A stretch of DNA of 27,276 bases, taken from positions 1 to 27,276 of the forward strand of contig KV919299.1 of assembly GCA_002049455.2 (NCBI GenBank), given 5' to 3'. Shown here in pieces: positions 4,736 through 27,276 of the stretch. Both the position numbers and the translations under genes were made by a program. The stretch comes from Porphyra umbilicalis. Lineage: Eukaryota; Rhodophyta; Bangiophyceae; Bangiales; Bangiaceae. The notes beneath the pieces are model-generated. The model saw only the letters and a program-made list of their open reading frames with translations, made no database searches and had not been told where the DNA came from. Position 1 is the first letter of the stretch. Each line of letters begins with the position of its first letter.

Positions 4736-4807
4736 AGTCCGACGTAGCACCACTTTTTAGACGAAGAAGCTCTTTTTTTGTTCGGGCCATGGAAATCGAA
4801 CTACCTA

Positions 4808-5300: not shown

Positions 5301-6546
5301 TACTTGATTCTGGCTTCCGCTGACCAAGAATAGCTGTGCGGCTATCGCTTTTCTATTTCGAGTCGGAATAGCTTTTAGGATAGCCGAGGCTATCTCACGG
5401 GGGCCTCTGATTGGCCCATGTGATGGATCAACGACCCGTTTCACAGCAAATAGTAGCACGTGGCTGCAACGTGTGCGCCACGTCTGCAAGATTGACTGCC
5501 AGTTTCTTCTGGGCAGAGGTGGTGGGAACGTCCGCAAGAGCTGTCGTGCGTGGCAATGGTCCTACAGTGACGTCCTTCTAGACGTGGCCGTCATCAAGCG
5601 TTGGACATTTTGACCTGTTTTTTTCGTCCGTCTGCCGACGAGCGTTCTCTGCGCCTTCGTTATGGTTGATACGGCTTCTCACCTCAGTTGTCATCTACCG
5701 CTGCAGTGAATCAAGTCCTGGCAGAAAATATCATCTTGATCGGGCCCAGACAAGGCCTGGTGTAAGGAAGCCTGCAGGTACTTAGGCTCATGCCAGCACA
5801 GCAGCCAACCGCTGACGTACATGTGGCTGTCTAAGGACGCGGACTTCATTCTAGAATGGAATAGCCGATAGCGATAGCCTGAGTTGTTGGCAATGCTCTA
5901 AACCCGTCTTTCTCTTGCGCTCGGTGAAAACCAGGGCCTGAGGTGGATAAAGTAGAGCCAGACATGTCCGCACATTATACTTGTAATAATCCATAATCCA
6001 TGCCGCAGCCGCGTATCCATATCGTACTCTGTTCATTTACCGCCGGATATACCGAGCCTGAATGACTCTCCGAAGGCCGGATATAATATAATCTGAATCG
6101 AATTTCCACCTTGCCTGATCCGGCTCACATATTCTGCGCCGCAGTGCTGGCGCGTGGGGATACCTCCCCACCCTGTTCAACCGCCATCATCTGGCAGTGC
6201 CAAGCGGCGATCTTGACGGAAAATTCCCGAACGGTTCTGTCCCGTGTCTGAAACCGCCTGCCTTGTTGTCAACGGCCCGCGCGAGAATCCAAACGGGCAC
6301 CCCCGGGTGAGCACACGAGAGTTCCAACGATCACTACTGACGAGGACCGCTGCACCACCCAACTAAATTCCAACAACCAAATGGTACTTGAAGGCGGTTC
6401 ATCGCAACAAACGCTTGTCAAGAGACACGCGTATTTAAATCACATGTAAGAATGTACCTGGAGAGATGTCTCCTTTCATTTCATTTCGTTTCAATTTTAG
6501 TCTTCTTCCAGATCCATCATCCAAGAGAATATATTCAATCTGTCTA

Positions 6547-6677
6547 CAGTGCGTTCTCGTTATAAGAGACAGCTGATTCGGCTCAATATGAAGAAAAAGT
6601 GGCCCACACGGACTGGAATGGAAGACTCGCGACCCATATTCTTTTGTAAACGATTCTCTTATAACGAGAACGCACTG
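6547..6677. mobile_element. Non-autonomous TA-flanked DNA element (MITE), 131 bp
   Basis: The ends are perfect inverted repeats of 23 bp beginning CAGTGCGTTCTCGTTATAAG, flanked by TA at 6545-6546 and 6678-6679. The terminal sequence differs from the 4808-5300 element by one base over the first 19, so both were probably moved by the same or closely related transposase. The interior is only about 85 bp and has no coding capacity. Confidence 0.85.
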
Positions 6678-6686
6678 TATCCTAAC

Positions 6687-6772
6687 TATATCCAAAATCG
6701 TACTAATTGAATATCCGACTATAATATTGATCCTGACTCTGTCCGCCCCAGCAGGATCTGATTTTGGATATA
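6687..6772. repeat. 13 bp inverted repeat with 60 bp loop
   Basis: TATATCCAAAATC at 6687-6699 is matched by its reverse complement at 6760-6772. It starts 10 bp after the smaller MITE. It could be a cruciform or the remnant ends of another very small element; no target duplication was identified. Confidence 0.45.
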
Positions 6773-6830
6773 TGACCTCGTCAAATACTCAATCCAGAGT
6801 GCATGTGAGGGTATGTGGGTTATATCCTAA

Positions 6831-7559
6831 TGCAACCAAAAGTGCCTGATTCCAAAGCCCCTGGTGACAACGGACCTCACGGTACCGATCGGTCACGATG
6901 CCGGGTTGGCGGAGTACCTGGATCAGCTTACGCTGGTGGCGGCGGAGGAGAACGATGCGGTCGATAAAGATCGAAGCCCTCGCATGAGCGAGCTACCGAA
7001 CCCCTTTCGGGTGCTGATGTTCGCGACTGATCATCGCCGCGCGGCGGACACCCGGTTCTTCCGCGGTCGCGGGCTGCTGCCGACGGAGTGGTCAGCCGGA
7101 TTCCTCCGGGCGCAGAAGTCATTTGACTTGTCTCGTTGGCTTCCGCCAGTCCCTGACTGGGAGCCCAAGACCGATCTTTGGGTGGCGACCCCGGTGGTGG
7201 TATCGTACCTGGCGGACTCGTTGCGAAACTAATATAGCGCCGCCTGGAAGATTGTGTACTCGGAGTACTACTGCAATCTGATTGCTTCTTGGGTTCGCAC
7301 CCTTCAAGAGGACAAGGTCTTTGTCCGCTCGGATGAGAAGACACTTCGTCACTTTGACGTCGTGGACACGTCCATACTGCGTGAGGCGCCTGACGGCGAG
7401 GTGGCACATGCCTTATATGGCATGGTGCGCCGCGCGATGGACGTGTTCCCATGGGGGGTCGTCCTCAAGGACGTGGTCCGTCGGGACCGGGACACCGGAG
7501 AGGCGCGGCAAGTGCGCGTGACGGTCGACGAGACCAAGGAGTTCGGCTTTTTGCCTTAG
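6831..7559 (+). pseudogene. Antisense gene of the chromovirus, middle part
   Basis: An open frame after the in-frame TAA at 6828-6830. GTG at 6864 could serve as a start, but as part of a split gene none is needed. The frame is stopped by TAA at 7230-7232 and resumes in frame to TAG at 7557-7559. Recognisable segments are rich in aromatic and charged residues (FRVLMFATDHRRAADTRFF, IVYSEYYCNLIASWVRTLQ, ALYGMVRRAMDVFPWGVVLK), which suggests a folded protein, but I do not recognise the family. It is in GC-rich DNA like 4106-4680 and on the same strand, supporting one ancestral gene cut by the AT-richer block. The next frame (7570-8256) probably carries the C-terminus after a frameshift near 7550. 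Confidence 0.5.
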
Positions 7560-7569
7560 ACACGCGTGT

Positions 7570-8256
7570 GTGGATTTCGACTGGGCGCCTGACCCGAACA
7601 CGCCCGCCCATGTGGCGCCGGTTCCTTCGAGTCACCTCGGGGTAAGGCGTCGCGGTCGACAGACCCATCCAGGAGGGGCTTATGCCGTCAGTGGCGAGCG
7701 TCGGGGTTATCACCGGCCGCGTTCGCCACGTCGCGATCGCTCGCGGTCGGCGTCGCCGCCCCGGGCCATCGAGGCCACTCGGCCGACGCGTGCTTCTTCC
7801 TCTGCGGCGGTTGCCTTGTTTGGGTCGGCGCGCGTGCGCGACGTGCGCCTTCGCGCGCCCCGTGGGGCGGCTGTGTCAGCGGTAGCGCACGCCCGGGTAG
7901 ACCAAGTGACTGGCTTGCGCCGTGCTGTGGAGCGGGCGGACGGCCGAGGGGTCGAGTCGGCCTTGGCCATCATTGGGCAGGCCGTGGCTCGCGCTGTCGA
8001 TGGCGATGCCAACTACGAGCGCTTTGCTCAGCATCTCGAGGCTATCCAGCCGGAGGAGGTGGCGGCGCCGACGCGCTCCAACGCGCCGAGCGTTCTGGGG
8101 CGTCGCGCCCATGCTGACGGGGGGCCGTCCGGCGGAGCTCCGCCCTCGGCGCGTAATACGCGTGCGCGTAGTGTGTCTCAGGAGTCGGGGGCCAGCGCTG
8201 GCTCTCGCCACACTTGTCGTCGCGACTCGCGTCGTAGTGATGAGGAGGACGAGTAG
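7570..8256 (+). CDS. Antisense gene of the chromovirus, C-terminal basic region
   Basis: Open in a different frame from 6831-7559, which ends at 7559, and open upstream past the GTG at 7570. The predicted 228 residues hold an RS-like tract (SPRRDRSRSASPPR), an Ala/Val-rich helical section around residues 75-140 and a Ser/Arg tail ending in acidic EEDE. Such a tail is typical of nucleic-acid-associated, intrinsically disordered ends. It ends 137 bp from the pol stop and converges with pol. No family is recognised, and a separate small gene is possible. Confidence 0.4.
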   Translation: MDFDWAPDPNTPAHVAPVPSSHLGVRRRGRQTHPGGAYAVSGERRGYHRPRSPRRDRSRSASPPRAIEATRPTRASSSAAVALFGSARVRDVRLRAPRGAAVSAVAHARVDQVTGLRRAVERADGRGVESALAIIGQAVARAVDGDANYERFAQHLEAIQPEEVAAPTRSNAPSVLGRRAHADGGPSGGAPPSARNTRARSVSQESGASAGSRHTCRRDSRRSDEEDE

Positions 8257-8392
8257 CGGGGTTCACTGTTAAGTGACTTGCTCGGCTGACCCTGGCGGGA
8301 GGGGGTGCCAATGTCGGGGGCTTACGCCTTTAAGGTGTTGATGTTTCTTCGTCTTGTGATTGTTTGTCGTTTGACATGTTTGTATCCACTTC

Positions 8393-8930
8393 TCAGCTTT
8401 TCTGTTTATCGTCATAGAGATGAAGGAAGTTGCAGGCCAGCATGGCCCAGGGTGTGGGATTCGTATCCCGTGCATCTGTTGGTAAAAGTACTTCGTACTC
8501 GAAACATGCGCGCATGGCGGTTGCGTACCAACTGGTGTTTGTCCACTGTGGAATGACCACGGTTGCTTCCTCTTTGGTTGTCACCAGGCGTCGAAGGACT
8601 GAGTCCAAGTACTGTACAGGGGGTACAAGAAACCCGTGCGGGAGCACTGGTACAGAGGGATCGCTCCCGATCAGTTTCGCCTGCGCGGATTTCGGCCACA
8701 CATATGTGTACGGGCCGTCAACACGGTTCAGCCGAGGGAAATGCCGCAAGGCAAGTTGGGGATCATACGCAAAGTTGCGCGCCATGGACGGCAGAGTGGA
8801 CTTCAGCCATGTGACGGAAATTACTTCTTTAATTGCGGCGGCTGTACTTGAATCTGCCCACGAGACATCGGCATGGATAACTCCGTCACCGGTAACATGG
8901 ACATGTTGGATAGTGGGTATCCACGTGGGA
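8393..8930 (-). other. Unusual C-terminal extension of pol
   Basis: Roughly residues 690-867 of the pol ORF lie beyond the chromodomain. The segment includes PVQYLDSVLRRLVTTKEEAT followed by VVIPQWTNTSWYATAM. A pattern of this kind (PP, Leu-rich helix, then a hydrophobic strand and VP-W-W-Y) is known to me downstream of RT/RNase H in DIRS-like elements. That resemblance is from memory and unverified. Ty3/gypsy chromoviruses normally end soon after the chromodomain. Confidence 0.5.
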
Positions 8931-11890
8931 TCCATGACAATGTTGGCCACGGTTGTGAGCCCGGCCTGTCGGCGACTTGGTCGCGTTGGCGTTTGCCATT
9001 CGTACCCTGGTACGTGTTTCTTCTTCTGCCAAAGAAAGCGCACCACCAGGTTGCGTGGGAGATTCTCCAGAGGTTCCCTGGTGTCGTCTTTCGACCCGTA
9101 GTCGAACCAGCGCACCTTAGCGCTATAGCTGTCGCCAGTCTGGCGTAAGCCTAGAGGTTTGTCGACAACATACTCGTCGGCAGTTGCCGGGGGTGGCTTG
9201 CGTTGGTCAAGACCATTTAGCAGGGGGTGTGGAACCGTGTCCGTCGTCGTTGGACGAGGAGCTGGGGTGACATGGTCCCTGCTGACACGTTTTTCCTCGC
9301 CGTCAATGTCAATGACAAACGTGGAGGCATCCGCGTCTGCGTCGATGACCACGAAGGGTCCAATGGCTTTGCTTTGTAGCTTATATTTCCGATCGTGGTT
9401 GGTTGTGTATACGGAGTCGCCGATCTTGACGTCCGCATTGCGGGTTGCGACCCGATGGTCGAAGTTACGTTTGTAACGTTGTTGCGTCTTACGCAAGGCC
9501 GCGACTACGACAGGGATCTGCTTGTGCAGGCGGGCCATGAACTCGCGTTTGCGAGCTAGGGGTGACCCATCCTTTAGCGTTCCCTTATTGGTAAGCGGAG
9601 TGCCCGGGGGCATGCGAATCGTGAGGTTGGGGATCCGCCTTGGGATAACGAGCTCAAAGGGAGCGATACCCGTAGACCGGTGTGGTTGGCTATTATATGC
9701 CATGGTGATTACCGGGAGTAGCTCTTCCCATCGTGTTGGGTCGTCGGCGACGTAAAGTCGCAGCTGAGTAGCCATGGTACGGTTGTACCGTTCCACTTGC
9801 CCATTGGCTTGGGGATGATACGCCGTGGTGCGAACTGTTTCAATGCCAAGTATTCTCATCACAGCGATGAAGAAGTTCGACATGAACTGGGGCCCTTGGT
9901 CCGATAGGATCCGGTCCGGGGGCCCGTAGGCGGACAACCACGCGTCGATGATGACTGACGCCACGGACATGGCCGTAATTCGCCGTAAGGCGACACACTT
10001 AGTGAGCTTGGCGCAACGGTCGGTGATAAGCAAGATGAAGCGATTGCCCTTCTTGGAGGCCGGGATGGGCCCAAAGATGTCAACGGACAGCTCCGTGAGA
10101 GGCTCAGTAGCCGGGAACAGAGTCAAGGGCGTGGTGTGTCGCCGCAAGGCGAGGCGGTTTTGGGCACGAGTTGTGCACTTGGTGATGGTGGTGTGGATGT
10201 CCGTTACCATCGACGGCCAGTAATATGCCTTTCGCATGGTGTAATACATCCGGTTCATATCAGAATGGGCTGGCACTGTGGCGTGGTGCTCGAGCGTCAA
10301 GACGCGTTTGCGTAATGCTTTTGATATAACCAATTGGTTGCCGTAAGGCGTCCGGCGATACAGAGCGTGATGCTCGTTGCGGAAGAAGGCCTTGGCCGTT
10401 CCGCGCTCCACGCGAGGGGACATCTCGACACAATAGTCGTCTGTTTGTTGTGCTTCGACAACATCGTCGAACTCCACCGGTTCCGGTGTGTCGGTACCCG
10501 TGTACCTCCCCGTCCTCAAGCCGTTGGCCGTCTCGGCCAATGCCAGGCAAGGTATATAAGCATGGACATCTTCTGGCGGCGCCACCGTCGAGGCGCGCGA
10601 CAGGAAGTCGGGCAAGTGGTGCGATGCACCTGGTTTATAAACCATATCGAATGTGTATTCGGACAGGCGAAGTTGCCATCGCATCAAGCGTCCGCTTGAG
10701 TCAGTCGTGCTGTAGATCCAGCTCAGTGCTTGGTGATCCGTTCGGATAAGGAACCGTTGCCCATCGAGGAAATGCCTCAACTTGAGGACAGCCCACACGA
10801 CGCCGAGGCATTCGCGCTGCGTTGTGGAGTAGTTTTGCTCTGCAGCAGTGAGTCCTCGGCTCCAATATCTGACAGGATGAAGCAGTTCGCCCGGTTCCTC
10901 CTGGAGGAGGGTACACCCAACTTGGTCGGCGCATGCGTCAACGTCAACGACGATCTTCCGATTGGCCTTTGGCAAGGCAAGTACCGGTGGGCACAACAGT
11001 GCGTTTAGAAGGTCCTAGAAGGCGGCGATGGCCACGCCCGTCGGTGGTGGTAGATCCGGTGGAATCTCTGCCCTAGTCAGGACGTTCAGGGGCTTCGCTC
11101 GTTTGGCAAAGTCCTTGAGGAAACGTCGATAGACGTTGCACATGCCCAAGAAGCTTTTCAGCTGGGTCTTTGTCGTTGGGAGCTTGGCGTGCTTCAGAGC
11201 ATCCACGTTCTTGTTATGCACGTGCAGTTGCCCGGGGCGGACAATGTGTCCGAGGTACTCGACTTCGTCGGAGAACCATGTGTACTTTTCCAAGTTTAGA
11301 GTAACCCCGGCTTCACGCAGACGGTGCAGAACCGTATCAACGTCTTTGAAGTGTTGTTCCGCGTTTGCGGAGAAGATGATGACATCGTCTAAGTAGACAA
11401 GGCATATTCGCCACTTCAAGCCCGAGAGGATAATATCCAACGCGCGCTGAAAGGTAGCGGGCGCGTTCGTCAAGCCAAAAGGCATTGATAACCAGTGGTA
11501 TGTACCACAATGCGTGGTGAACGCCGTCTTCTCTTGGTCTTCCATGCGTAAGGGCACTTGCCAGTACCACGCGGTGCAGTCGAGAGAAGTGAACACCTGG
11601 ACATCTTCCAAGGAGTCGAAGAAGTGCTCCATCCGAGGCAAGGGATACGCATCCTTCTTGGTGATGTTGTTTAACCGACGATAGTCGACACAGAATCGGG
11701 CTTTGTCGTTCTTCTTTGGTACAATTACCACGAGGCTTGCCCAAGCACTATGGCTAGGGGCAATGACGTTGAGCTTCAATATCTTGTTGATCTAATCAGC
11801 GATGATCTGCCGTTTGAACGGCCCGGTTCGGTAGGGTTGAGCCCGTATGGGCAGAGAGTCTGGAGGAGTGACGATGGCGTGCTGCGTAGC
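8393..11890 (-). pseudogene. Chromoviral pol: reverse transcriptase, RNase H, integrase, chromodomain, extension
   Basis: RT motifs (DYRRLN, FTSLD, YLDD) lie in 11015-11779, and the frame also covers the usual pre-RT HAIVT and PIR motifs near 11870. TAG at 11792 and 11015 interrupt it in frame. The ORF at 8393-10996 then holds RNase H (Asp20, Glu62, Asp87, Asp130), integrase with the DD35E triad Asp306, Asp366, Glu402, and a chromodomain-like segment around residues 608-655 (EPLENLPRNLVVRFL). In the integrase zinc finger the last ligand is Arg277 where CxxC expects Cys. After the chromodomain about 200 further residues follow, ending DDKQKS. Pol copies the RNA into DNA and integrates it; the chromodomain in this clade steers insertion to particular chromatin. 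Confidence 0.93.
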
Positions 11891-12711
11891 AAGGATGACG
11901 CCAAGGGTTCCATCCCACAGACGGCGGCCAACATCGGCCCTTGGTAGGGTTCTGCAAACCCCAAGGTTGAGTTCTTGCGAACAATGACTTGGTCTCTGCC
12001 AAAGTTGCATAACTTGACTAAGAAGGGTTCGTCGGGCTTGACAATTGCCAGGCCGCGGGCGACCGCCATTGACTTATGTCGGCAGAACCGAGCGTTCGGT
12101 GTGATGGTAACCATACCAGGGGTGTCGCATGTGGCCATGATTCACTCCTCTTGTTGTCCGTCGACACGTACCTGTTTACAGGCTCTCACCCTTGCGGGTT
12201 TGTCTTGCCCATGGCGGTCCCAGGCACTGTCATTAAGACAAGCAAAGATCGGCGTTGGCCGAGGAAGCTCCTCCGTGCAGCGCACGTGTTCCTACCAGAC
12301 GATCTTACGCAAACGCGGCAAGATCGCCTCGATGTTTTGTTCAATGGACTCGGTGCCAAGGATGCATGGGACTGACAAGTTGTCGGAAAAGAGGAATGAG
12401 TCGAATAGACGTACACCTTCGGTGTCTACATAAAGATGTATGGCATACTTTGTCACGAGACGATTGCTGTTTGCATCTCGGATGCGCGGAAGCGTGGTCA
12501 ATTCCTCGGCGTAAGCCATCCAGTTCGCAGGGAGAACACTAGTTCGCACTATGTTGACCCCAGCGCCCGTGTCAAGTACAGGGCGGCAGCTCCGCATCAC
12601 ATGCATGCACGGGCCAAACGTGGCGGCGATCTCGTAGTGCCGTAAGGCACGGCGCAACAACCTTGTTACCGTACGCAATCGCGTTCCGCCGGGCAACCCC
12701 AAGTCGAGCAC
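11890..12711 (-). pseudogene. Chromoviral aspartic protease and linker to RT
   Basis: The protease motif is PVLDTGAGVNIV with the catalytic Asp at about residue 47 counted from 12711, and a later ILGTE segment matches the second half of a retropepsin. The enzyme cuts the Gag-Pol polyprotein. The frame differs from gag, which ends at 12717, so the junction is a possible frameshift site. TAG at 12292-12294 and TGA at 12142-12144 break this frame. After them it resumes with the post-protease linker (VTITPNARF ... FGRDQVIVRKNSTLGFAEP). A further frame change at roughly 11890-11950 is needed to reach the RT frame. Confidence 0.8.
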
Positions 12712-12716
12712 CCGGC

Positions 12717-14363
12717 CTAGGCGTTTTTCGAGTCGTCCACGGCGTCGGCCTGATGTTCGATCTCATCTTCTTCGAAGTTACTGTCGGAAAGGGCAAGAAC
12801 GCCGATAGGCGGTTGGCGACGCTCGCAAGGGCGATATGGTTCGGCACACTTTGCGGCGAAGTGCCCCGGCTTGTTACAATTGTAACAGATGTCAGCCCGC
12901 TTGACTTGAGGGACGGCGGCCCGCGGGGGCGGCGGGTTGTGAACCGGTGTGAACGGTCGCTCCGTCGTCGTCCGCTGGTCCTGTGTCTCGTAAGCGACTT
13001 TGATTGCCGTTGGGCGGGTCATCTTGAGCTGCACGCGCAGCTTGTTGGTGCCGTCCCAGTACATCTGGGCGGTAGCAACAGTCTCGGAAAGAGTCCGATC
13101 CGAGAAATCGTCATTCAAGACCCGCACGTGCGCTTGCACAAGGTCCGAAAGACCAGTGATGAAGACGTCCTTAACGTCTTGGATGTCGAACAAACCGTTC
13201 AGGAGGTCGCATTGCGTTTCCACGCGGTGACTAAAGGCCGTGAGCGCCTCGTTGTGTTGTTGCTTCATCGTACTGATGTCTTGGTAGGCGTTAGCCATTG
13301 TTGCGTGTGTCGCATACTTCGGAAGAAGCCAGTTGACGGCATCTCCGTATGTACGGATGGCATAACGCTTACGTCCGAGGGTGCTGTTAAGCGCGCCGGA
13401 GAAGGCCATCTTGGCATTGCCAGCTAGTCGACAGACCATGAGCGGAAGGGCTTGACCGTGTGTCAGCCCAGCCGCGTCGCACGCGCGGCGAAAAGTCGTT
13501 AAGAACGTGAAGATGCCCAAGGGCAGGGCTCCCGTGAATGGCTGTTGCCCATGGAACGCTCCGTCTCAAAGTTTGTTGAGACGATGCGACCGTTGTGCCT
13601 TCTTAGGCGTATACGTCAGTTGACGGTGGATCAGGAAGTACGTCCTGTGGTCCAGGAGTGTCTTGAAGCGGCTATTAGCCGGGCGGATCATTTTGATCCT
13701 ATCGGCTTTTTCAAGTCGCTCCTTCCGCTTGGTGGGGGTCACGGGGCGCTTGCGCGCGGCCGCGTCCGACTCGCTCGAGCTGCCGCTCGGTGAGGACCCA
13801 CTTGGGGGCGACGGAAGGCCTGGTGGCCCGTGCCCATCTTCCGAAGAGGACATGTCCGTCGCGTTCGAGTTTTCGTCGTCTGACGACGTCGGGCTTGACC
13901 TAGAGGCGGAGTCATCGGAATATGAGGAAGGTGCGGCGTTAGCCGGATCGACCTTGCGGACGGACTTGTCTTGAGTCACCTTGCTTGTCTTCTTGACATT
14001 CTTGGTCTTGTCGCCCGACTGGTGGCGAGACTCAGCCACACAGTGTTCCTCCTCATGGGAGTCGACCTTGTGCAGGGCCTCGACGTCGTCGACCAACTTG
14101 TCATTGGCTCGCGCCAGAGACTCGTTAGTCTGTTCTTGGGCCGTTAGGCGTCGCTGAAGTGCTTCAACGGCCGCCTTCAGGCTCTCCACCACCTGCATCT
14201 GCCCGGAGGCGGCTTGATCCGCAGGGATGAGAGGGGTAGGAGCACCGTCCGTTGGGGCATCAGAAGCGGCAGGAGTGCCGTATCCCCCGCCCGGCGGCCG
14301 GTAGCCAACTGGAAACTTGCCGTCTCTGGCTCGCCGAGTGCCGCCGGTACCACCAGTATACAT
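12717..14363 (-). pseudogene. Chromoviral gag with zinc knuckle
   Basis: One frame from ATG at 14363 to the stop at 12717, broken by a single in-frame TGA at 13566-13568. The N-terminal part has a coiled-coil-like Gln/Glu/Ala region (about residues 60-100) and a long Ser/Asp/Lys-rich linker. The C-terminal part contains a capsid-like helical region and the nucleocapsid knuckle CYNCNKPGHFAAKC, a CX2CX4HX4C motif. Gag packages the element RNA into virus-like particles. The frame is open some way upstream of the ATG, so an earlier start cannot be excluded. Confidence 0.85.
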
Positions 14364-14571
14364 ACTGGGACCTGGACAAAGTGTTTCGACTTGACCAACG
14401 CCCTGCGCGCCAACGTCGAAGATCTCAACCGTGATGCCCCCGGCACCACGCCCACAAGTCTATGGCTTACGCCCCGCGCGCCAAGCGACCGTATCGACAC
14501 CGTCACAATACCACGAGGCTGCGACAAAGTTCTCGGGGACACCGTGCCGCGAGGCACGATGAAGGCGAGGG

Positions 14572-14591
14572 TATCCCCTGCTGCTCCACCA
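14572..14591 (-). promoter_or_regulatory. Candidate primer binding site
   Basis: Two bases inside the 5' LTR the minus strand begins TGGTGGAGCAGCAGGGGATA. The TGG start and short spacing fit a tRNA-primed first-strand origin. The complementary tRNA 3' end would be ...CUGCUCCACCA; I cannot name the tRNA. Confidence 0.45.
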
Positions 14592-14593
14592 AA

Positions 14594-14989
14594 AGTGGTA
14601 CTAATAACGTTGGTGCAATTACCAGTGTACTGAGACCGACCGTAGCCAAGCAATAAAGCGAGTTCTATCGCCGTCGCGGCCAGGAAGAAAGACCTTTTGT
14701 TGAAGGGCATCCGATGAGGAGCCGGGTGGTGCCCACGACGGCGACCCCGGACCCATGGTGATTTAATATTACCGATGGCACTGCTCGATCGACCGTCCGA
14801 TCACAAGCGATCGGAATGAGTGCCGGCAGAGAGGTAAGACAGGCAGGCAAACAAACAATAAAAAATAAACAATGCAGAAGTAACCCCCCAAAGGGCGTGC
14901 GACAGGCCAATTCCCACAATACATGGGCTTTGGCCCGTCAAGGAGGCTACGTGTGGCCATTTGCCAATTGGAAGCAGAGATATGCTACA
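14594..14989 (-). repeat. 5' LTR of the chromovirus
   Basis: Direct repeat of 2724-3120. Its outer end is ATGCTACA on plus, matching the other LTR; its inner end reads AGTGGTA where the other copy has TGTGGTA, so the inner terminal base has mutated. It should hold the element promoter on the minus strand; AATATTAAAT (plus 14761-14770) is where the other copy has a better TATA-like sequence. Confidence 0.9.
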
Positions 14990-17132: not shown

Positions 17133-17775
17133 CTGGGCCATCCCCCGCGGCGAGCGCCACAACGAGCAGCGGCGATGGACAACACTGAGAGCGGGGGCGG
17201 CGTTTGTCACGTAGCTTTTGTCGCTGAGCGCGGTGGCTTCGAGAGCGCAAAGGACGGCACGGGGGTATGGGGAGAGTGTGCGTGCGCGTCGCCGCCGCTG
17301 CAGGGGCGGCACGGCGGCCGCCACATCCGGGGGGGGGGAAACATCGGGTTCGGCGAAGCAGGGTGGAGGCGACGCGGCGGGCGGTGGCGGTGGCGGGGGA
17401 GGTGGCGGGGGCGGCGGCGGTGGGCGGTGGCCGGCAGGCCGAGCAGAGTTGGCGTCACCAGGCAGGCGGAGCATACTTCCACGCCTCGCCCGCCGCAAAC
17501 CGCGGCCCCAGCCTGTGCGGGGTGGCCCGCGTCCGCGCCGCCACCCCTATGTGGCCGGGGCGGCAATCCAACCACTCCGCACGAGGCGCGGGTGGCCGAC
17601 CGCGCGTCGCTGGTGGGCGTGGGACTGCCGCCACGGCCATGGCGCCACTACCCGCATCGCCGCGCGGCCCGCCAAGGCGGGCGACGACGCTGCTCCCCAC
17701 CCCTCCGGCGGGGGTGGCGCGAGTGCCGCCCTGGCCGCTGTCCGCACCCGGCGGTAACCGCCGGCCGGGGGCGGC

Positions 17776-17933
17776 AGCGGCGGGGGGCGGGGAGGCAGCG
17801 GCGGGCGACTGCGGCTGGGAGGCCGATGGTAACGGCGTCGCGGCGGCGCGGCCAGCGGCGGGGGGCGGGGAGGCAGCGGCGGGCGACTGCGGCTGGGAGG
17901 CCAATGGTAACGGCGTCGCGGCGGCGCGGCTAG
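17776..17933. repeat. 78 bp tandem duplication
   Basis: The block from AGCGGCGGGGGGCGGGGAGG through GGTAACGGCGTCGCGGCGGC occurs at 17776 and again at 17854, nearly identical apart from single-base differences such as GCCGATGG versus GCCAATGG. The near identity indicates a recent local duplication. Confidence 0.85.
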
Positions 17934-18720
17934 CGGACAGCGGCGGCGCGGTGACACGCGTCGGCAACGGCAAGGCGCCGGCGCCTGGCAGCCTGGCACC
18001 GGCAGACCGTTGCGACCGCCCGCGGGCCGCGTCAAGGCGGCGGGTGGCGACGGCGCCGCGGCGGACGTGGCGGCGTCGCGGGCGACCGGCGCCCCCCCTC
18101 CCCCCCCTCCCGGGCGCGCGACGGCCGAGGAGGCGCGCGCATGGGCAGCAGGAGGGTCCGCCACCCGTGCCGCGCGGCCGCGAGGCACGGCTCAGGCGGC
18201 ACCGGCGGCGCCGGGCGGCGCAACAACGCCAAGCACGGCAGGCGCCCCGGCGGGCGACGGACACGGTGGGTGGGGCGGCGACGCAGCGGCCGGCAGCTCT
18301 GGCGGCGCGCCGGAGGTTCTCGGGCCTGACCGGCAGCTGTGGGGCGGGGCGGCAGCGGCGCGGCAGGCGGGTTTGGCGGGCGGCGACGCGGCCACGACAG
18401 GCTCGTCGGCGGCGAGGGCGGACGCCCCGCCCCCCCCCCTACCCCGGCGCGCGACGACCACGGCCGGAAAAGGGGGGGGGGAACGCATCCACCGGCGGCA
18501 GCGACGGGGATGGTCGGCGGCGGCCGCTGGAGCGCGTCGGCGCGCGCGCGCGTTCGCGGCGCATCGGCGTAAACAGGAGGGGACGGCGGACCGACGGCGG
18601 CGGCAACCCGCGGCGAGGCGGCAGGCGGCAACGGCGTCGCGGCGCAGGCAGGGTGCGCCCCCCCACCACGTCCCTCCACCGGGGGAACAGGGAAGGCCCG
18701 AAGAGGGGCGGCGGCGGCGT

Positions 18721-19468
18721 CGCGGCGGCAAGGGACCGCGGCGCCGGCGCGTCATGCGCGCCCGGCGAGGCGGTTGCGGCCGGCGGCAAGGCCTCCGCCG
18801 GCGGCGCACGCAGCCTGCGTTGACCTGCCGCGTTGCCGACCCCGAAGGCCGGCAGCGGAGGCGCGACCGCCGCTGCAGCCGCTGCGAGTGCCAAGCCCGC
18901 GGCGGCAAGCCGTGGCGGCGCGGGCGCGGCGGTCGGTGTCACGCCGTCCGCGTCGATGATGGCGACGCGGCTGCCGGCGCCGCGGCGCGGCCGCGTCTGG
19001 CTGACGGAGCGCGTCGCGACCGGGGCGCCGCCAGGCCCGCGGCGGCCGTCGAGCGGTGGCGGCGGCGAATGGCGCGCGGGCGGCTGCGTGGCGGGGCGGC
19101 AAGGGACCGCGGCGCCGGCGCGTCATGCGCGCCCGGCGAGGAGGTCGCGGCCGGCGGCAAGGCCTCCGCCGGCGACGCTCGCAACCTGCGTTGACCTGCC
19201 GCGTTGCCGACGCCGCAGGCCGGCAGCGGAGGCGCGACCGCCGCTGCAGCCGCTGCGAGTGCCAAGCCCGCGGCGGCAAGCCGTGGCGGCGCGGGCGCGG
19301 CGGTCGGTGTCACGCCGTCCGCGTTGATTATGGCGACGCGGCTGCCGGCGCCGCGGCGCGGCCGCGTCTGGCCGACGGCGCGCGTCGCGACCGGGGCGCC
19401 GCCAGGCCCGCGGCGGCCGTCGAGCGGTGGCGTCGGCAGGTGGCGCGCGGGCGGCTGCGCGGCGGGGC
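18721..19468. repeat. 371 bp tandem duplication
   Basis: Copies at 18721-19091 and 19092 to about 19468 align at a constant offset of 371 bp, checked at GTCATGCGCGCCCGGCGAG (18751/19122), GTTGACCTGCCGCG (18819/19190) and GGTCGGTGTCACGCCGTCCG (18931/19302). The copies differ at scattered positions. Because 371 is not divisible by three, any frame shifts between copies. Confidence 0.9.
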
Positions 19469-19758
19469 GCGGCGCGGGCAGATGGGTCCGTCGCCCGGCG
19501 CCCACGCGCGTCACCCGCCAGGGCGGCTGTCATGGCGGGGGCGCGGTGGGCGGCGAGTCCGTCGGCGGCGATGGCGGCGGCGCCGTCACCGCCGACGCGG
19601 CCATGCCGCGGGCACGACGGACGCCGCGTTGGATGCGCCGCGTGGCACCAGCGGCGCGCTGACCGCGCGCAGACGTGGGCGGCTAGGCGCCAAGATCGAG
19701 ACAGGGTCAGCGTGGCAGAGTCTCCCGCCGCGGGCGCTGGCGGCAGCAGCAGGCCACC

Positions 19759-20735
19759 ATGGGGCGAAAATGATCAAGACTGACCACATCCAGGACGAGC
19801 GCAACCGGGCGGTACGTACGAGGCGCGCCGGGTGTGAAGCGCAAGGGGGGAGGGGAGAGGCGGCCGGTCGGCTCGGAGCGAAAGGGGGGGCGAGACGGAC
19901 GCGCGCGGAAGTGGCGAGTTGTCGCAGCGTCAGGGATGCGGCGCCCGAAACGGTATTGCCAGCGTCTGCGTGGCCACCCCGCCGATGCGCAGGGGGACTC
20001 TAGCGGCGCGGCGCACTACCCGTCGTGTGGTTGTTGGTAGCCGGGTCTGTTTCCTGCATGGTCGATGGTTGCAACACTCCCCACTGTCCCCTCCCCGCCC
20101 CCCGCCACCATTGAATGACGTCGGTCTGCGTGGCGCAGGTGCCCTTTACCAAGCGCAAGACCGGGTTGCTCAAAAAGGCGCGGGAGCCGTCCATCCTGTG
20201 CGACTGCGAAACTGCGGTGCACAACACCAACGGGCGGTGCTTTGAGTTTGCATCGGGCGACACGAGCCGAACGCTCACCCGGTTTGCTTCCTTCCAGGGC
20301 ACCGTCGAGCTCCGGGGGTTGGCAGAGGTACGCCATCGTCACGCGCTGCTGTGCGGGGAGTTCGTGCGCTTGCGTGTTGGCAGCGGCCGCTGCCGGTAGA
20401 GTACAAGCAGCCGTCGGCGGTAGGCGCGGCGCGGACGACGACTGACGTGCCTCGTGGTGCCCCCTACGGTCTCTTCCGCGTGTCCCATGACCTTGGTTCC
20501 ATCACCCCTCCTCATACTCTTTTCTTTGGCTGATCTCCTCTCCTCTCCTCGCCTCTTTGGCCCTGGTTGACGGCCGCTGGTCGCAACACCCCCCACTTAC
20601 CCACAGGATGAGCGAGCGCGGCTGGTTCACCGCCGGTCGCTCGACCCCGACTCGCGGCACTTGCAGGCGGTCGCCGCCGCCACCGCCGCCTTGTGTCGGG
20701 CGCCGCCCGACCCCCTATGGGTGCTTCTCGGGTAG
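19759..20735 (+). CDS. MEF2-type MADS-box transcription factor gene, frameshifted in exon 1
   Basis: Three exons: 19759-19811, 20139-20327 and 20607-20735, with phase-0 GT-AG introns. Exon 1 starts GCCACCATGGGGCGAAAA, a perfect Kozak start coding MGRK, then needs one extra base to read IKTDHIQDERNRA. Exon 2 codes VPFTKRKTGLLKKAREPSIL then CDCETAV and CFEFAS, the MADS dimer and DNA-binding region with the CDCE signature of MEF2-type proteins. Exon 3 codes 42 residues to TAG at 20733. MADS proteins bind CArG-like DNA as dimers in the nucleus. Oddities: one A missing in exon 1, about two residues missing in the strand after CDCE, and Pro in the usually helical AYEL position. The intron between DERNRA and VPFTKR matches the intron position I recall for animal MEF2 genes. 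It may be a young pseudogene, or the frameshift may be an assembly error. Confidence 0.8.
19812..20138 (+). other. Intron 1 of the MADS-box gene
   Basis: Donor GTACGTACG at 19812 and acceptor GCGCAG ending at 20138, preceded by a C-rich pyrimidine tract (about 20085-20110). The 327 bp intron splits the MADS box between Ala and Val in phase 0. Confidence 0.75.
20328..20606 (+). other. Intron 2 of the MADS-box gene
   Basis: Donor GTACGCC at 20328 shares GTACG with intron 1; acceptor CCCACAG ends at 20606 after a pyrimidine-rich stretch (20500-20560). The 279 bp intron is phase 0. Exon 3 assignment rests on splice signals and frame only. Confidence 0.55.
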
Positions 20736-22149
20736 CTCCCACCCCCGCCGCCGCCGTTTCCGACGCCGCCCACGACTGATGGCGGTTGCGAGGGTGCGGC
20801 GGGCCCCGCCGACTGCGGCGGCTGCGGTGGCGCCAGCAGCGCCGCCGCCGGCTGCGGGAAAATTGGCTATGCGGCGGCGGCCACGCCGCCGCGCCCGCCG
20901 GCCGCGCAGCAGTTCACCACCTCTTCGTCCACGTCGGAGGCGTCGGGCAGGCCCCGCCGCCGTGCAACGTCTGCGCGCCATGACGGGTATGGCGGCGGCG
21001 ACGGGCCGGTGGCCGACGCGCGGTTCGCCTACCCACCGGCGGGGGCGTCTGGCCCCGCGGCGGCCGGCGGCTGCCAAGCGCTGCCGGCGGCTGCCACAGG
21101 CAAGCAGGCGCCTGAGGTGTCAGGCAAGGCGGTGGCGGTGGCGGCCACGGGTCACTTTCAACGTCGACGCCACCGCCGTCGAGTGACGTGCAACCGCCGT
21201 CACCGCGCGGGTAGCGGGGTGGCGGGGAGCCATCCCCCCAACCCCCACCTTCCGTCCCGTCGGCAGCGTCGCCGCGGGGTGCTCCCCCCCCCCCCACCAC
21301 TCAGACGACCACCCGTACAGCGGGTGACGACCGCCACCGAGTCCGGAGGCCTACACCCTCCCCGCTGTCCGCGGGCCGCCGTCGGTGGTGGCGGCACGGT
21401 CTGCGCGGGGTACTCCCCCCCGGCCGGGGATACTCCACGGCGGGCGGGCGGGCGGGGGTGGAGCCCGGCAGCCGCCGCTGCCGCACGGAAGACGTGGCAG
21501 GGGATGACGCGCCGCCCCCACCGCCGCGCGCCCGCAACGCCGTGGCCGTCAGGGACGATGCGTGGTGCCGCCCCGGCGCGGGCGGCAGCGCCTCGGCGGC
21601 ACTTTGGCGGGGGCACGGGCCGACCCGTCGGGGAGCAGCCACAGGCGCGGCCACGGGTCGCCGCGGCTTTGCCCGCACCAGGCGGTGCAGACACGTGATC
21701 CGCTGCTGCCAGCGTCGCCCGTCGCGCGGCTCGTGCAGGGGCTCGGCGCCGCGCGCGTGGCGCCCGGCGCGGCCGGCGCCGACGGGCGGCCGTGGGGGGT
21801 GTACCCCGCCACCGACGCGCCGAGGGACCCTCGGGAGCACCCTGCGACGACGCGGGGGATTACCCGCTGCCATCTTCGCGGGGGGCGCCTCTCTCCCCAC
21901 GGCGGGGGGCGCACAACTCGCTCATGGCGCTGCCGGGTCCCCCCTCACGGACGCGGGAGGGCACCCGTCGGGTATGCCACCCGCTCGTTGAGGCGGCCTA
22001 CGCGGGGCCCCCGCAGCCGTGGGTCAACCCCCCCGCCGCCGAACCGCCGGCGCCGCCGGACCGCCGGCGGGGCGGCGGCCGCGGGCAGGCGGCGTGCCGC
22101 CGCCGCCGCCGCTGCCAACGACGGCGCGTCCGGCAGCCGAGGTGGCGGC
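20736..22149. other. GC-rich interval downstream of the MADS-box gene
   Basis: Dominated by CGC/CGG/CCC-rich sequence with short homopolymer runs. Overlapping frames on both strands code Arg/Pro/Ala/Gly mixtures. I see no domain, no splice pattern I could defend and no RNA gene. The MADS gene 3' untranslated region should begin here. Confidence 0.5.
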
Positions 22150-22566
22150 GGCAGCCATGGCGGCGGTGGCCGTCGTGACGTTCGTGCCAATGGCGGTGGT
22201 GGAGGGGGTGGCGGCAGCCATGCGGCGGCCAATGGCGGTGGTGGAGGGGGCGGCGGCAGCCATGCGGCGGCCGTCGTGACGAGGGTGGCAATAGCAATGG
22301 CGGCGGCCGAGGCGGTGCCGGCAACCATGGCGCCAGCGGCCGTCGTGCCGTTGGAGGCAATGTAAATGGCGGTGGCGGCAGCTGGCGGCGGCGGCAGCCA
22401 TGGCGGTGGCGGCGGTTATGACGGCCGTGGCAATGGCGCTGGCGGTGACGGCAGCCATGGCGGTGGCGGGAGCCATGGCGGTGACGGCGGTTACGATGGT
22501 CGTGGCAATGACGCTGGCGGCGGCCTGAGGTGGCGGCGGCAGTCATGGTGGCGGCGGACGTCGTGA
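22130..22566 (+). repeat. Gly/Ser/His-coding minisatellite
   Basis: Repeated units around GGCGGCAGCCATGGCGG, including a 42 bp tandem pair starting GCCAATGGCGGTGGTGGAGG at 22186 and 22228, and further variants to 22566 (reading GGSHGGGGGYDGRGN in the frame from 22366). Several ATG triplets and a stop at 22363-22365 fall within it. It could be the 3' part of a Gly-rich protein gene, but frame changes between blocks make a plain minisatellite more likely. Confidence 0.6.
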
Positions 22567-22654
22567 CGTTGGTAACAATGGCGACGCCCTCCTGCCCACG
22601 AGGGCCCAAATCCACATCACACCCGACCTCACACCCGACCGCCGACTCCACCGC

Positions 22655-24304
22655 CTACATAGACTCGCCACCACTATCGCTCCGGACCGACAAAGGCGCT
22701 TCCTCATCATCTACACCTTCATCCACGTCGATGGCCGCCGTCGTCCGCCCTCTCTTGCGCGACGGCGCCTCGCTCGCACCGGCCCCCCCGGACCCCCCCC
22801 CGTCTGGCTGCACTTCAGTGCCGGGCGGCGTGACGACCACCTCCGCAACAGAGCATTCGATGACCAGGTTTTGTACCCACTTCGCGATCATCGGCAACAC
22901 ATTGATGTTCGGTGTCAGCGTACGTTTGTAGCACAGCTGCTCTGCAACCTCAGCAGGAGAGACCGCGCCGCACGTGAGCGTCATCCCTGTAAGGACGTGG
23001 TCCTTGGCCGCGTCGATGAAGGCCTCTTCCATCCTCGGGAAGAACTGCGCGTTGGCCGGCCCAATAGCACCCACAAATACAGCCCTGGCAAGCTGCACCG
23101 GGGTCCACTGGTTCACCGTCGGGTGCGAGAAGATCACAGCGTTGTCAAACTTGGCTCGTTGGCCGGGGCGCCACACGAGGTGGTCCGGCGGGGATGCGGG
23201 ACGCACACCCACAGCAGCAGCGAGGGCGCCGCCGCCGCCGCCGCCGCCGCCATCTCCGCCGCCGCCGACCACCGAGTCGACCGCCACTCCCGGCGCCGTC
23301 ATGCGACGAACGGCCGAGGCGGCGCGCAGAGCCGCTGCCTGCATAACTCCCTTCTCCTTGGAAACCATGCGGGCGGCGACTAGAGAAACTCCGCCGTCGC
23401 TTCCTGCCCGAGAAGAGGCGGTCACGAGAGAACTCACCGACGCCGCCCGAGCCGCTCCCCGAGCTGCTATCCCAGCCCTCACCCCTCCACGGCCGCGCGC
23501 CGTCGGAGACGCAGTGCTGCCCCCGAGTACCGGCAACGCCCCAGGTCCCTCCCCAGCGCCCCCCGTCGCCTGCACCGCCGCAGAGGCTTCAGCAATGGCC
23601 GTTGCCGCCGCCGCCGACCGCGCCCCACCGCCGCCCGCGCCAATAGCACCCGCGAGTCTGCCATGGGCAGCACGGCTGGACGCGGTGCTGCCCGTCGCTG
23701 CTGCCATTGCCGCGCCAACGGCCGACATAGCAGGATCCATTAATGCAGCAGCTGTCCGGTCAAAAAAGGCTCGATTGTCAACCGAGTTAGTAGCGGCCTG
23801 GATACCGCTCGACCGCATGACGTCGGCCGCCCCAGTTGTCGACAAACCAGTTTGGTACAAGTTGTCCCGCAACAGCTCCGCGTTGCTGGCCGAGCGTTGC
23901 CGCTCGCCCCAGGCCGACCAGCACTTGTCATGGTAAGCCTTGAGCCACTCTTTGACGCACTGGTCATCGACTGCGGCGCACACGAAGTCCGCGCCCGACA
24001 GCTCAGGGGCCGTTCGCTTGCGGGACGGTAGTCTGCGGCTCCCCGACCGCACGTACAGGTCGTCATTGATGACGAGAGTGCGCACGTGGTGGCCTCGTTG
24101 TTTGCACTTGGAGCACTTCTCATCGTGGGCGCAGCCTTGCATCGTGCATGTCTCAGGGTCGTAGAACGAGTCGTCGGTGGGGAGTTGATGAAAGCACGGG
24201 TAGTTTTTCATTTCACACGACCGCGCGTCGTGTCCCCCCTTGCGCAACTCACCGTCGTCCCCCCGCCCGAGATCGAAGCTGCACATCGTGCACCGGCCGA
24301 CCAT
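22655..24304 (-). CDS. Zinc-knuckle-like Cys/His protein, 549 residues
   Basis: A single uninterrupted frame from ATG 24304 to the stop at 22655. The N-terminus has C5, C8, H25, C30 (CX2CX16HX4C, ending GHDARSC) and a second set C64, C67, H72 (CSKCKQRGHHVRT). In the second set the fourth ligand expected in CX2CX4HX4C is Leu77. Extra Cys at 37, 53 and 58 may complete other sites. Residues 180-350 are Ala/Ser/Gly-rich with a long Gly run coded by a GCC repeat (plus 23227-23275). Residues 370-480 look globular (LVWRPGQRAKFDNAVIFSHP, MIAKWVQNLVIECSVAEVVV). The tail has a basic KRGR nuclear-signal-like motif and an acidic end. Knuckles of this kind bind nucleic acid and are common in transposon-derived proteins; the function here is unknown. 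Confidence 0.7.
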   Translation of the reverse strand: MVGRCTMCSFDLGRGDDGELRKGGHDARSCEMKNYPCFHQLPTDDSFYDPETCTMQGCAHDEKCSKCKQRGHHVRTLVINDDLYVRSGSRRLPSRKRTAPELSGADFVCAAVDDQCVKEWLKAYHDKCWSAWGERQRSASNAELLRDNLYQTGLSTTGAADVMRSSGIQAATNSVDNRAFFDRTAAALMDPAMSAVGAAMAAATGSTASSRAAHGRLAGAIGAGGGGARSAAAATAIAEASAAVQATGGAGEGPGALPVLGGSTASPTARGRGGVRAGIAARGAARAASVSSLVTASSRAGSDGGVSLVAARMVSKEKGVMQAAALRAASAVRRMTAPGVAVDSVVGGGGDGGGGGGGGALAAAVGVRPASPPDHLVWRPGQRAKFDNAVIFSHPTVNQWTPVQLARAVFVGAIGPANAQFFPRMEEAFIDAAKDHVLTGMTLTCGAVSPAEVAEQLCYKRTLTPNINVLPMIAKWVQNLVIECSVAEVVVTPPGTEVQPDGGGSGGAGASEAPSRKRGRTTAAIDVDEGVDDEEAPLSVRSDSGGESM

Positions 24305-24760
24305 TCTCTCGGACCGTCGGTGCGAGACGACACGGCGGAGATAAAATAGGCACTTGGGTGACCACCCCGGGAGACCGGGGGGGGAACGAGAGCGTCTCTG
24401 GGACGGATCTTAGAGGCTGGAGGCGGGCGCGCGGCACAGTGTCGTCAACGTGCCGCACCAAGTGTGTTCTGATTGGACTTGGTGGAATCCTTCAAGCGCC
24501 GTCGACGCTTCAGCTGCACATTCGTGCAGCAAATGAGAGTGGTCCACTGCTGAATCCACCGGGAGATCCAGTCTCATGACACGATCTGCGGCAGGAGCGC
24601 GGCCACTGATGGTGTCTCGTGACCGGGCGTGCGGCGCGAGCAGGCCCAATGAAAATGGACGCTGCAACTGGCACTCGACAGATGCGCCGACAGCCTGTGG
24701 CGAGAGGCGGATGGGCATGTTTGCACCACAGAACTTACGGATTGCACGTTAGACGGGCCA

Positions 24761-25122
24761 GCACGATGTCCTGCACGATGTGCTTTCTTCAGATCGAGAG
24801 GCCCGATATTGGCAGCCCTAATCGAGACGAAATCACCCGACCCGCTTCCACTGGCTCAGTTAGAGGCTGCCGATTAACACAGCACGAAGTGGACATCGTG
24901 CATCGAGCACGATGTCGAGCACGATGTCGAAACCGGGAATCTTAATGGCAACAAGTAGCCCGATATTAAGACGTGGCCCACTTTGCTGAGACAATGGGGC
25001 ATCAGATCACTCGCCCTCTTCGATTCCGCCATCCCGGCCACGTGATGAGCGAGAATTGTCCTGGGATCCGAACTCGTGTTGAGCTGTTCTGTAAGACATC
25101 GTGCGCTCCGTCGACATCGTGC
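24761..25122. repeat. Cluster of the 10-mer GCACGATGTC in both orientations
   Basis: Perfect copies are at 24761, 24907 and 24919 on plus, and as GACATCGTGC at 24892, 25095 and 25113. A one-base variant, GCACGATGTG, is at 24773. The pair at 24907 and 24919 forms a 12 bp tandem repeat GAGCACGATGTC. Six exact copies in about 360 bp far exceed chance. The arrangement resembles a binding-site array, perhaps for the gene at 22655-24304, though a decayed satellite is also possible. Confidence 0.7.
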
Positions 25123-25952
25123 AGCCCCTCACGGGGTCTGTGAGAGGGGTGATCGTGCGAACGATCCGCGGCGTGTCCATTTTTTAGGGAAGTGCCATAT
25201 GTACCTGCATTCTTGATCGTCAAGACTAGAACTTTGGCACCCATGGCTTTGGGGCCTCACATCGCCTTGCGTCTTGTCACCAAGGGTTTCATGTACACGA
25301 TTTCATTGAGAATGCAAAAAAAAAAACAGAAAATTTGCTGTCGGCAACACAAACGATGAATGAAATTTGCGCACATTCTCCGTGGAATGGATAGATCTGG
25401 TGCATGTTACTCTCTGTACTATGCAGATATGTTGCACGACCTGTGGTGATTTGGACAGACGTTGTGCACAACCAGGTCGTACCTTGCATATTCTGGCATG
25501 CCCTGGTGTCGTGATTAGCTTACTCCAGCACCTTAGTTTGCTTGTGTTGCTTGGAACTGTACATCAAGCAGCCAAAGCTCAGCAGATTCGAGCTGCAGAC
25601 CTGCACGGCCAGCAATGCTGATCGGCTCGATCTGGATCGCTTCTCACCACCTCCCCGCTCATCGTCCCGCACAGCACCACGAGGAGCTCTCACGTTCTGA
25701 CCAGGTTTTGTCCACACCAAGGCACTTTTTGGCGATGCCCCGCCTCACGACCATGGGACACGTGCCTTTCTTGGAAGGATGACTGGTACTCCTCCCAATG
25801 GCAGCCTGAAATGCAGGTTCCAGATGAAAATCTGCGCAAGTGGGTGTCCTGAGGTTGCAGGACTCCATGCGCTTTTCTGCATGCCTCGACACGCGTTTGG
25901 TGCATGTTCGCAGTAGTCTAACACAGGCACGAGAGATTCCTGTGCAGGTGGC

Positions 25953-26494: not shown

Positions 26495-27276
26495 TCACTC
26501 CTCGGGCGACGGCTCGTCGCTGGCGGGCGGCGGCTCGTCCCAGGCCAAACCAATGTCGCCCCCTGCAAGCGCCCGGTCGTCACCGTCTGGCGGTGGCTGC
26601 GCACAGGCCCACGCCCAGTCGCTTGAGACGGGCGACGACGCGTCACAGGCGAGCGATCGGTCGTCATAGGGCGGCGGAGGCGCTTCACCTGCGGCCGACG
26701 GCACTGCACGGGCCGGCGGCGCCGTCGCCAGAGCCAATGCTGACGTGCCAGGCGTGGGCGGCGGCTCGTCCGAGGCCAAACCCACGTCCCCACATGCCAG
26801 TGCCCGGTCGTCACGGTCTGGCGGTGGGTGGCCGCCGCCCAAGTCCCAATCGTTTGAGAGGGGCGCCGACGCGTCATGGGCGAGCGCCAGATCACCGCAA
26901 GGCGGCGGCGGCGCTGCGCCGGCTGGCGACGGCGCTGCAGGGGCCGACGGCAGCGCCACCGACGCCAATGCCGACGTGTCAGGGGCGGGCGGCGGTGCAT
27001 CGCCGGCCGGCAGCGGCGCGGCACGGGCCCAAGGAGGCGCACTACCGGCGAGCTCCACGTCCTCACACGCAGCGGGCGGCGCACCGTCGGCTGGCGACGG
27101 CGCCGCACGGGCACACGGCGGTTCGAACCGGGAATCCGCCCCACACAGGCCGACTGGGTTGGCACCGTCGGCCGCCGCTAGCGCCGCAGCGGCCGACGCC
27201 GCCTCCGAGGCAGACGGCGCCGCGTCGCAGGTCAGTTTCCCTGCGGCGCGGCGCAACGCGTGTGCCATCCACGCCG
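26495..27276 (-). CDS. Pro/Ala/Asp-rich repeat protein, truncated by the window edge
   Basis: The minus frame is open from the right edge to TGA at 26495-26497. An ATG lies at 27268, but the frame is open past it, so the true start may be outside. The protein is built of 77-residue repeats (231 bp in DNA) with segments such as PPPDRDDRALACGDVGLASD and PPPDGDDRALAGGDIGLAWD. Toward the N-terminal side there are about 28-residue Pro/Ala sub-repeats (ARAAPSPADGAPP). Because the period is a multiple of three and no stop has arisen, selection for coding is plausible. The composition suggests an extended, disordered or cell-surface/wall-like protein. No family is recognised. Confidence 0.5.
   Translation of the reverse strand, partial: AWMAHALRRAAGKLTCDAAPSASEAASAAAALAAADGANPVGLCGADSRFEPPCARAAPSPADGAPPAACEDVELAGSAPPWARAAPLPAGDAPPPAPDTSALASVALPSAPAAPSPAGAAPPPPCGDLALAHDASAPLSNDWDLGGGHPPPDRDDRALACGDVGLASDEPPPTPGTSALALATAPPARAVPSAAGEAPPPPYDDRSLACDASSPVSSDWAWACAQPPPDGDDRALAGGDIGLAWDEPPPASDEPSPEE
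26500..27050. repeat. 231 bp tandem minisatellite
   Basis: The constant 231 bp offset was checked at CTCGTCC within GCGGCTCGTCC (26534/26765) and at GACGTG within the next block (26742/26973). The third copy is partial and more diverged, and grades into ~84 bp sub-repeats (GCGACGGCGCxGCAxGGGC at about 26924, 27010 and 27094). Confidence 0.8.

Follow-up and report, generated by a model that had tools for sequence, protein, structure and literature searches.

A 27,276-nt stretch of the Porphyra umbilicalis genome (contig KV919299.1, positions 1 to 27,276 of the forward strand; hereafter the window) contains a MEF2-type MADS-box region in which a start codon in strong context opens a frame of only four codons. 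Such a region could be a host gene that was broken recently, an intact gene misread at a homopolymer, a gene now translated from a later start, or a sequence that does not belong to a host locus at all. Comparison with the rest of the genome identifies it as the last of these: the MADS region of the window is a decayed piece of a host MEF2-type gene inside a giant Tc1/mariner-type transposon, and not a host locus.

A decayed MADS fragment and its intact homologue

At 19759 the window reads GCCACC ATG GGG CGA AAA TGA, which encodes M-G-R-K followed by a stop, and an open frame from the first ATG is thus absent. Aligned with the intact homologue on contig C137 (ATG GGG CGA AAA AAG ATC...), this copy has one base fewer and an A>T change, which bears out the one-base loss behind the start codon described in the initial annotation. 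The sequence and this alignment place exon 1 at 19759..19811, including the four-codon mini-ORF (19759..19773), the TGA of which overlaps a second ATG at 19770, and intron 1, with its GT..AG borders retained, at 19812..20138; all MADS features lie on the forward strand. Exon 2 (20139..20327) is the MADS core and translates as VPFTKRKTGLLKKAREPSILCDCETAVHNTNGRCFEF. On its own it reaches 40.4 bits against the Pfam SRF-TF family (PF00319; cut-off 26), far above chance. Alignment with C137 shows that exon 2 carries L35P, and the proline previously noted in the first helix is therefore real, as well as a 9-bp deletion that keeps the frame and removes three residues (L-I-F) of the first strand. A loss from the strand after CDCE had been recognized correctly, and its size, given earlier as about two residues, is corrected here to three. 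Intron 2 (20328..20606) also retains GT..AG, and exon 3 (20607..20735) runs to a premature stop at 20733-20735, where the intact homologue is open.

Eight places in the genome match the MADS domain of Pfam, namely C137, C58, and six copies of the window's MADS region (the window itself, C59, C387, C31, C47, and C105). At the DNA level this region matches seven, the same set minus C58; the latter holds a second, clearly different MADS gene (L001, 68.7 bits) outside this repeat family. C137 is an intact MADS gene with a MEF2-like start and a 1438-codon ORF spanning GT-AG introns, and among solved proteins it is closest to MEF2C (E 1.7e-25), followed by plant SEP3 (1.1e-14) and SRF (1.9e-9). The search for a paralogue that the initial annotation had suggested thus yielded an intact homologue, and its closeness to MEF2C, together with the SRF-TF match in exon 2, upholds a MEF2-type origin of the window's MADS sequence. 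The segment of host origin extends over 19608..22134 (forward strand) and comprises an upstream part, exons 1 and 2, both introns, and part of exon 3; it is 82-84% identical to C137, and no other match of at least 150 bases exists between the window and the compared 20 kb of that contig. We take C137 to be the donor of the captured fragment or the closest descendant of that donor. Both introns align with C137. Since they were kept, capture took place at the DNA level, and a processed (retro) pseudogene, which would have lost them, was rejected.

By alignment, the same base of the A run is missing in all five element copies in which exon 1 is retained (window, C59, C387, C31, and C47), while C105 has other sequence where exon 1 would stand. 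The window, C59, and C387 are mutually 98-99% identical, and C31, C47, and C105 match the window copy at 85-89% identity and C137 matches it at 84-86%. Because the loss is common to five copies that differ by up to about 15%, it is old and is no homopolymer error. The site is indeed a homopolymer, as the suggestion of a sequencing or assembly error supposes, but the base is short in C59, C387, C31, and C47 alike, the identical string stands on the separate contigs C59 and C387, and C31 and C47 have further substitutions beside the shortened A run; an error of this kind has next to no chance of being the explanation. Similarly, the start context and the splice sites can still be read, as can much of the MADS sequence, which would suit a native host gene that was freshly broken, as had been proposed. 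However, that proposal is refuted by the loss shared among five of five exon-1 copies, with the introns of C31 and C47 about 10-14% different from those of the window copy, and the intact homologue is located elsewhere, so that a fresh break at a host locus is scarcely credible.

It had also been proposed that translation starts at the second ATG, in which case the lineage of the window would make a 119-residue MADS protein without the N-terminal arm from 19770, perhaps by reinitiation after the MGRK mini-ORF. The reading frame itself stands: this ATG is in frame with exons 2 and 3 up to 20735 (119 codons), the 9-bp deletion preserves the frame, and the product retains an SRF-TF score of 50.4 bits (cut-off 26). 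In addition, the stem shared by the window, C59, and C387 has 3 nonsynonymous and 6 synonymous changes in exons 1 and 2, a ratio taken over nine changes only and somewhat unlikely under neutrality (binomial 0.010-0.025 for a neutral share of 0.75-0.70). A working MADS fold, in contrast, is disfavoured by L35P in helix 1 and by the three residues gone from the first strand, and the intact homologue reaches 80.6 bits for SRF-TF. Decay is evident in C31 and C47, where the shared stem has 7 nonsynonymous to 3 synonymous changes, the MADS ATG is also lost, and exon 2 contains one stop (C31) or several (C47). Among the window, C31, and C47, variable sites are distributed fairly evenly over the three codon positions (55, 69, and 70 of about 367 each), and dN/dS over all MADS codons (357-367) is 0.69 for window-C31, 0.94 for window-C47, and 0.87 for C31-C47. 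We consider it unlikely that a truncated MADS protein is made from this ATG.

The carrier element and its transposase

The MADS fragment lies within the right-hand remnant of a giant Tc1/mariner-type element at 17280..25199 (forward strand), the 5' part of which is missing. The remnant is defined by its identity to C387 and C59 (pieces of 98.4-99.2%) and by a common right end, which falls at 25199 in the window, 278864 in C59, 38085 in C387, 144236 in C31, and 230084 in C47. The C47 end is the same base as that of the window and the C31 end is within one base of it, and the sequences beyond 25199 differ among copies. The right end is a 26-bp terminal inverted repeat, TATGGCACTTCCCTAAAAAATGGACA, at 25174..25199 on the reverse strand (0 mismatches). 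Comparison of C449 and C31 located the left end, and both ends proved to be 26-bp inverted repeats, perfect in C59 and matching at 25 of 26 positions between the left end of C449 and the right end of the window. With up to three mismatches allowed, the repeat pattern occurs 110 times in the genome, and a reversed control pattern 0 times. When a forward repeat was paired with a reverse repeat less than 50 kb further on, at least 32 paired elements were recognized among the 100 of 110 repeat places listed, 18 of 24-44 kb and 14 of 3.2-9.8 kb. The MADS-bearing copies with both ends measure 36,816 bp (C59), 34,653 bp (C31), and 40,933 bp (C47). Because few copies match the MADS region by DNA, the MADS capture is restricted to one subfamily.

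Upstream of the MADS fragment, window positions 18710-19469 hold a tandem duplication of ~371 bases that is also present in C59 and C387. A 143-base tandem satellite occurs at C59:246000-251603 (about 39 units in the stretch read) and at C449:35980-36759; to the left of the E(z) gene of C59, it was considered as the edge of the element and proved to be internal.

When the flanks of the C31 copy were joined by one TA, the junction with both its sides was matched at 38 other places, at 86-92% identity and with spans of equal length in 38 of 38. Therefore, the C31 element entered a repeat at a TA that is now found on both sides, and a TA target site duplication is demonstrated for this one insertion. 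A large segmental duplication was also considered as the means by which the MADS region had spread, since some 26 kb of C59 and C387 match at about 98-99% identity. However, the common ends with inverted repeats, the transposase, and the empty sites of C31 led us to drop it as highly improbable. The host MADS fragment sits between the element ends and its intact homologue lies outside, on C137, in keeping with transposon capture. In that process, the giant Tc1/mariner-type element took up a fragment of a host MEF2-type gene as DNA, introns included, and the fragment was then copied along with the transposon, apparently as passenger cargo.

The window copy begins inside the element at 17280; the left part with its transposase, E(z), and VEFS is gone, and the copy is not autonomous. 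Its contents are the MADS fragment, one terminal repeat, and a cysteine-rich ORF of 549 codons at 22655..24304 on the reverse strand. For this ORF, dN/dS between the window and C31 is 0.24 (0.91 and 2.54 in frames +1 and +2), with values of 0.46 against C47 and 0.86 against C14. Seven relatives of its protein were found, none of them named, none of the Pfam families matched it, and its AlphaFold model has a mean pLDDT of 28.8.

The window holds other repeats as well. A Ty3/gypsy retrotransposon at 2725-14989 has gag, RT, RNase H, and integrase frames on the reverse strand (8393-13520) and direct repeats of 396 and 395 bases that are 94.4% identical. Two pieces of a DDE_Tnp_4 transposase, which we take to be of PIF/Harbinger type, lie at 2051-2779 on the reverse strand, and a direct repeat of about 240 bases (79% identical) lies outside the element at 26525-26995.

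In C59 and C449, an open frame immediately within the left end matches DDE_3 (PF13358) at E 1e-9 and 6e-10, above the cut-off. In an alignment of the query with 12 of its 84 relatives, D159 is found in 12 of the 13 sequences, D256 in 13, and E290 in 12, with D256 and E290 34 positions apart; these are presumably the catalytic D, D, and E residues of the transposase. Given the DDE_3 transposase and the TA site, the element is therefore of Tc1/mariner type. Between C59 and C31, the transposase has a dN/dS of 0.27 (at least 1.19 in the other two frames), and the C31 frame is interrupted by TGA. A relative is present in Pyropia yezoensis (P0074), the sole one shown with a species name. The genome itself holds phycobilisome linkers on C665 and seven further contigs, which mark it as that of a red alga. 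Viral contigs, from which near-genome records were possibly left out, gave 30 pattern-matching stretches for the transposase and no relatives by tblastn.

Polycomb-type genes of the element

The C59 element contains an E(z)-type gene at 251845-255174 (SET 4.2e-12, CXC 4.7e-5). The best solved relative of this CXC-SET protein is EZH2 (2.7e-30), and the next SET families follow at 1.1e-17 or weaker. Across nine aligned sequences, down to 37% identity to C59, no change is seen at 14 cysteines in the CXC region or at the N-H, F-D, and last Y of the SET domain; at one further CXC cysteine, which C387 and C449 keep, C59 has Gly. Upstream of the CXC region, where the ESC/EED-binding part of E(z) would be expected, the match to EZH2 is weak and consists of a single stretch (553-826, i-Evalue 0.42). 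The same element contains a Su(z)12-type VEFS-box gene at 267970-270306 (VEFS-Box 3.8e-10, 40.2 bits, cut-off 23). VEFS-Box alone is listed for its protein in Pfam at E up to 0.1, with no C2H2 zinc finger of the Su(z)12 kind at that threshold, and a search of solved chains gave no match at E up to 0.1.

Between C59 and C31, dN/dS is 0.38 for E(z) and 0.46 for VEFS, with values of at least 1.19 in the other two frames. Against C47, VEFS has a dN/dS of 0.52 with five frameshift gaps; near-identical copies, with few changes, range from 0.36 to 2.8. The VEFS genes of both C31 and C47 have frameshift gaps, and the SET match of C47 is partial. Overall, these sequence comparisons support the view that E(z) and VEFS are maintained genes of the element. 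No ESC/EED-type gene was found in Pfam scans of chosen element frames, and a complete PRC2 would therefore need host parts. For E(z), the viral contigs yielded 66 pattern-matching stretches and no relatives by tblastn, again with near-genome records possibly left out. C352, the best SET match in the genome, was rejected as an E(z) gene, as its translation is not E(z)-like as read and it has no CXC match. A compact arrangement, with SET and VEFS matches 0.7-2.2 kb apart, was seen at C57, C86, C117, C113, C23, C33, C71, C261, C317, and C154.

The E(z)-type genes are linked to one clade of transposases. Among the 18 paired elements of 24-44 kb, a transposase match is present in 17, CXC in 17, SET in 16, and VEFS in 10, where chance would give 0.6 SET and 0.19 VEFS matches over the paired elements; the C13 element lacks all four. 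In the genome, 60 of at least 76 CXC matches lie within 25 kb of a transposase that is at least 53% identical (at most 4.0 expected). At least 89 such close transposases were counted, 58 with a CXC match within 25 kb and 31 without, and in the tier of 42-47% identity 1 of 28 has a CXC match that close; the CXC and transposase counts are lower bounds, obtained by scoring the best candidates. Fifteen CXC matches have no close transposase within 35 kb. Some of these are on contigs that cut the element off, for instance C387, and a host E(z) gene may be among the fifteen.

The 14 short paired elements with the same terminal repeats (C22, C234, C263, C33, C3, C12, C44, C46, C354, C524, C56, C96, C103, and C202) have no SET or VEFS match, and that of C12 has no clear gene by eye. 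They are perhaps internally deleted passengers.

The E(z) and VEFS genes could be inert hitch-hikers that bring the element no benefit. The MADS fragment in the same element looks like passive cargo, the VEFS match is missing in 8 of the 18 paired elements, and some copies are damaged (the TGA in C31, the frameshift gaps, and the CXC cysteine of C59). However, the dN/dS values of 0.38 and 0.46 apply to the coding frame only, the CXC match recurs in 17 of 18 paired elements, and the 14 CXC cysteines and the SET N-H and F-D are unchanged in nine sequences as distant as 37% identity. Inert cargo is thus a doubtful account of these two genes, to be given some weight.

A functional account can be put forward tentatively. 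The giant mariner clade may have gained E(z) near its base and a Su(z)12-type gene in part of its members, and a self-encoded PRC2-like enzyme may set the chromatin of host targets or of the clade's own copies. Together with host ESC/EED-type subunits, the element's E(z) and VEFS proteins would form this enzyme, which would methylate H3K27 on or near element copies, and the outcome would be either a tolerated silent state or interference with host silencing. We regard such methylation as possible rather than probable. If the element does use Polycomb genes in this way, then the dozens of red algal E(z)-type genes would mostly be transposon genes and not host developmental regulators.

As a whole, MADS capture by a giant Tc1/mariner-type element carrying E(z) and VEFS, with a proposed PRC2-like role, is the best explanation of the element ends, the one TA insertion, the DDE_3 transposase, the CXC-SET and VEFS-box genes, the conservation of coding sequence in a pair of diverged copies, and the association of E(z) with a transposase clade, and we hold it with good confidence. 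In red algal genomes, counts of E(z) genes may be, in large part, counts of transposons, and MADS-like matches may be captured fragments.

Comparison with known systems

Typical Tc1/mariner (IS630) members are about 1-5 kb long and have one gene. The elements described here resemble them in the DDE_3 transposase, the short terminal inverted repeats, and the TA target site, but they are 24-44 kb long and have further genes as cargo: E(z), in many cases VEFS, and a captured MADS fragment in a single subfamily. In Pack-type capture, fragments of host genes are taken up by DNA transposons. The intron-containing host fragment between terminal inverted repeats, with an intact homologue elsewhere, is similar, whereas the carrier family here has its own transposase and exceeds 30 kb. 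Giant cargo DNA transposons and Tc1/mariner elements are thus known kinds, and a 24-44 kb mariner-type element with PRC2-type genes was not found described; no paper on Polycomb-carrying mariner elements was found in the open-licence literature, which most subscription journals lie outside.

Giant DNA transposons with cargo have been reported from algae, including KDZ, EnSpm, and Sola-1 elements in Ectocarpus, enlarged En/Spm elements in Chondrus, and giant EnSpm elements in red algae (PMC12477816, PMC6431247). Giant size and accessory genes are common to those elements and to ours, and one algal family encodes a ParB-DNA methyltransferase for which modification of the element that encodes it has been proposed (PMC12477816), which offers a parallel. 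However, those transposons belong to other transposase superfamilies, and the accessible portions of the two papers mention no PRC2 cargo (PMC12477816, PMC6431247). SETMAR likewise joins a SET methyltransferase to mariner biology; according to the portion of the source available, it is a primate host gene, a fusion in which the transposase is inactive, and is associated with H3K36me2 (PMC8704517), whereas the genes here are separate, lie within elements, and include a SET domain of E(z) type.

A further comparison is with PRC2 itself, to which the CXC-SET protein closest to EZH2 and the VEFS-box protein correspond as E(z) and Su(z)12. In contrast to PRC2 genes of hosts, these are encoded inside transposons, with at least 76 CXC matches in the genome and no ESC/EED-type gene in the scanned element frames. 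PRC2 has been discussed, in the part of the source available, as a host repressor of transposons, perhaps ancestrally (PMC8788455). Here, transposons carry genes for a PRC2-type catalytic subunit and a Su(z)12-type partner, and for both, a comparison of two diverged copies gives a dN/dS well below 1. If these genes are active, the usual relation between PRC2 and transposons would be turned round.
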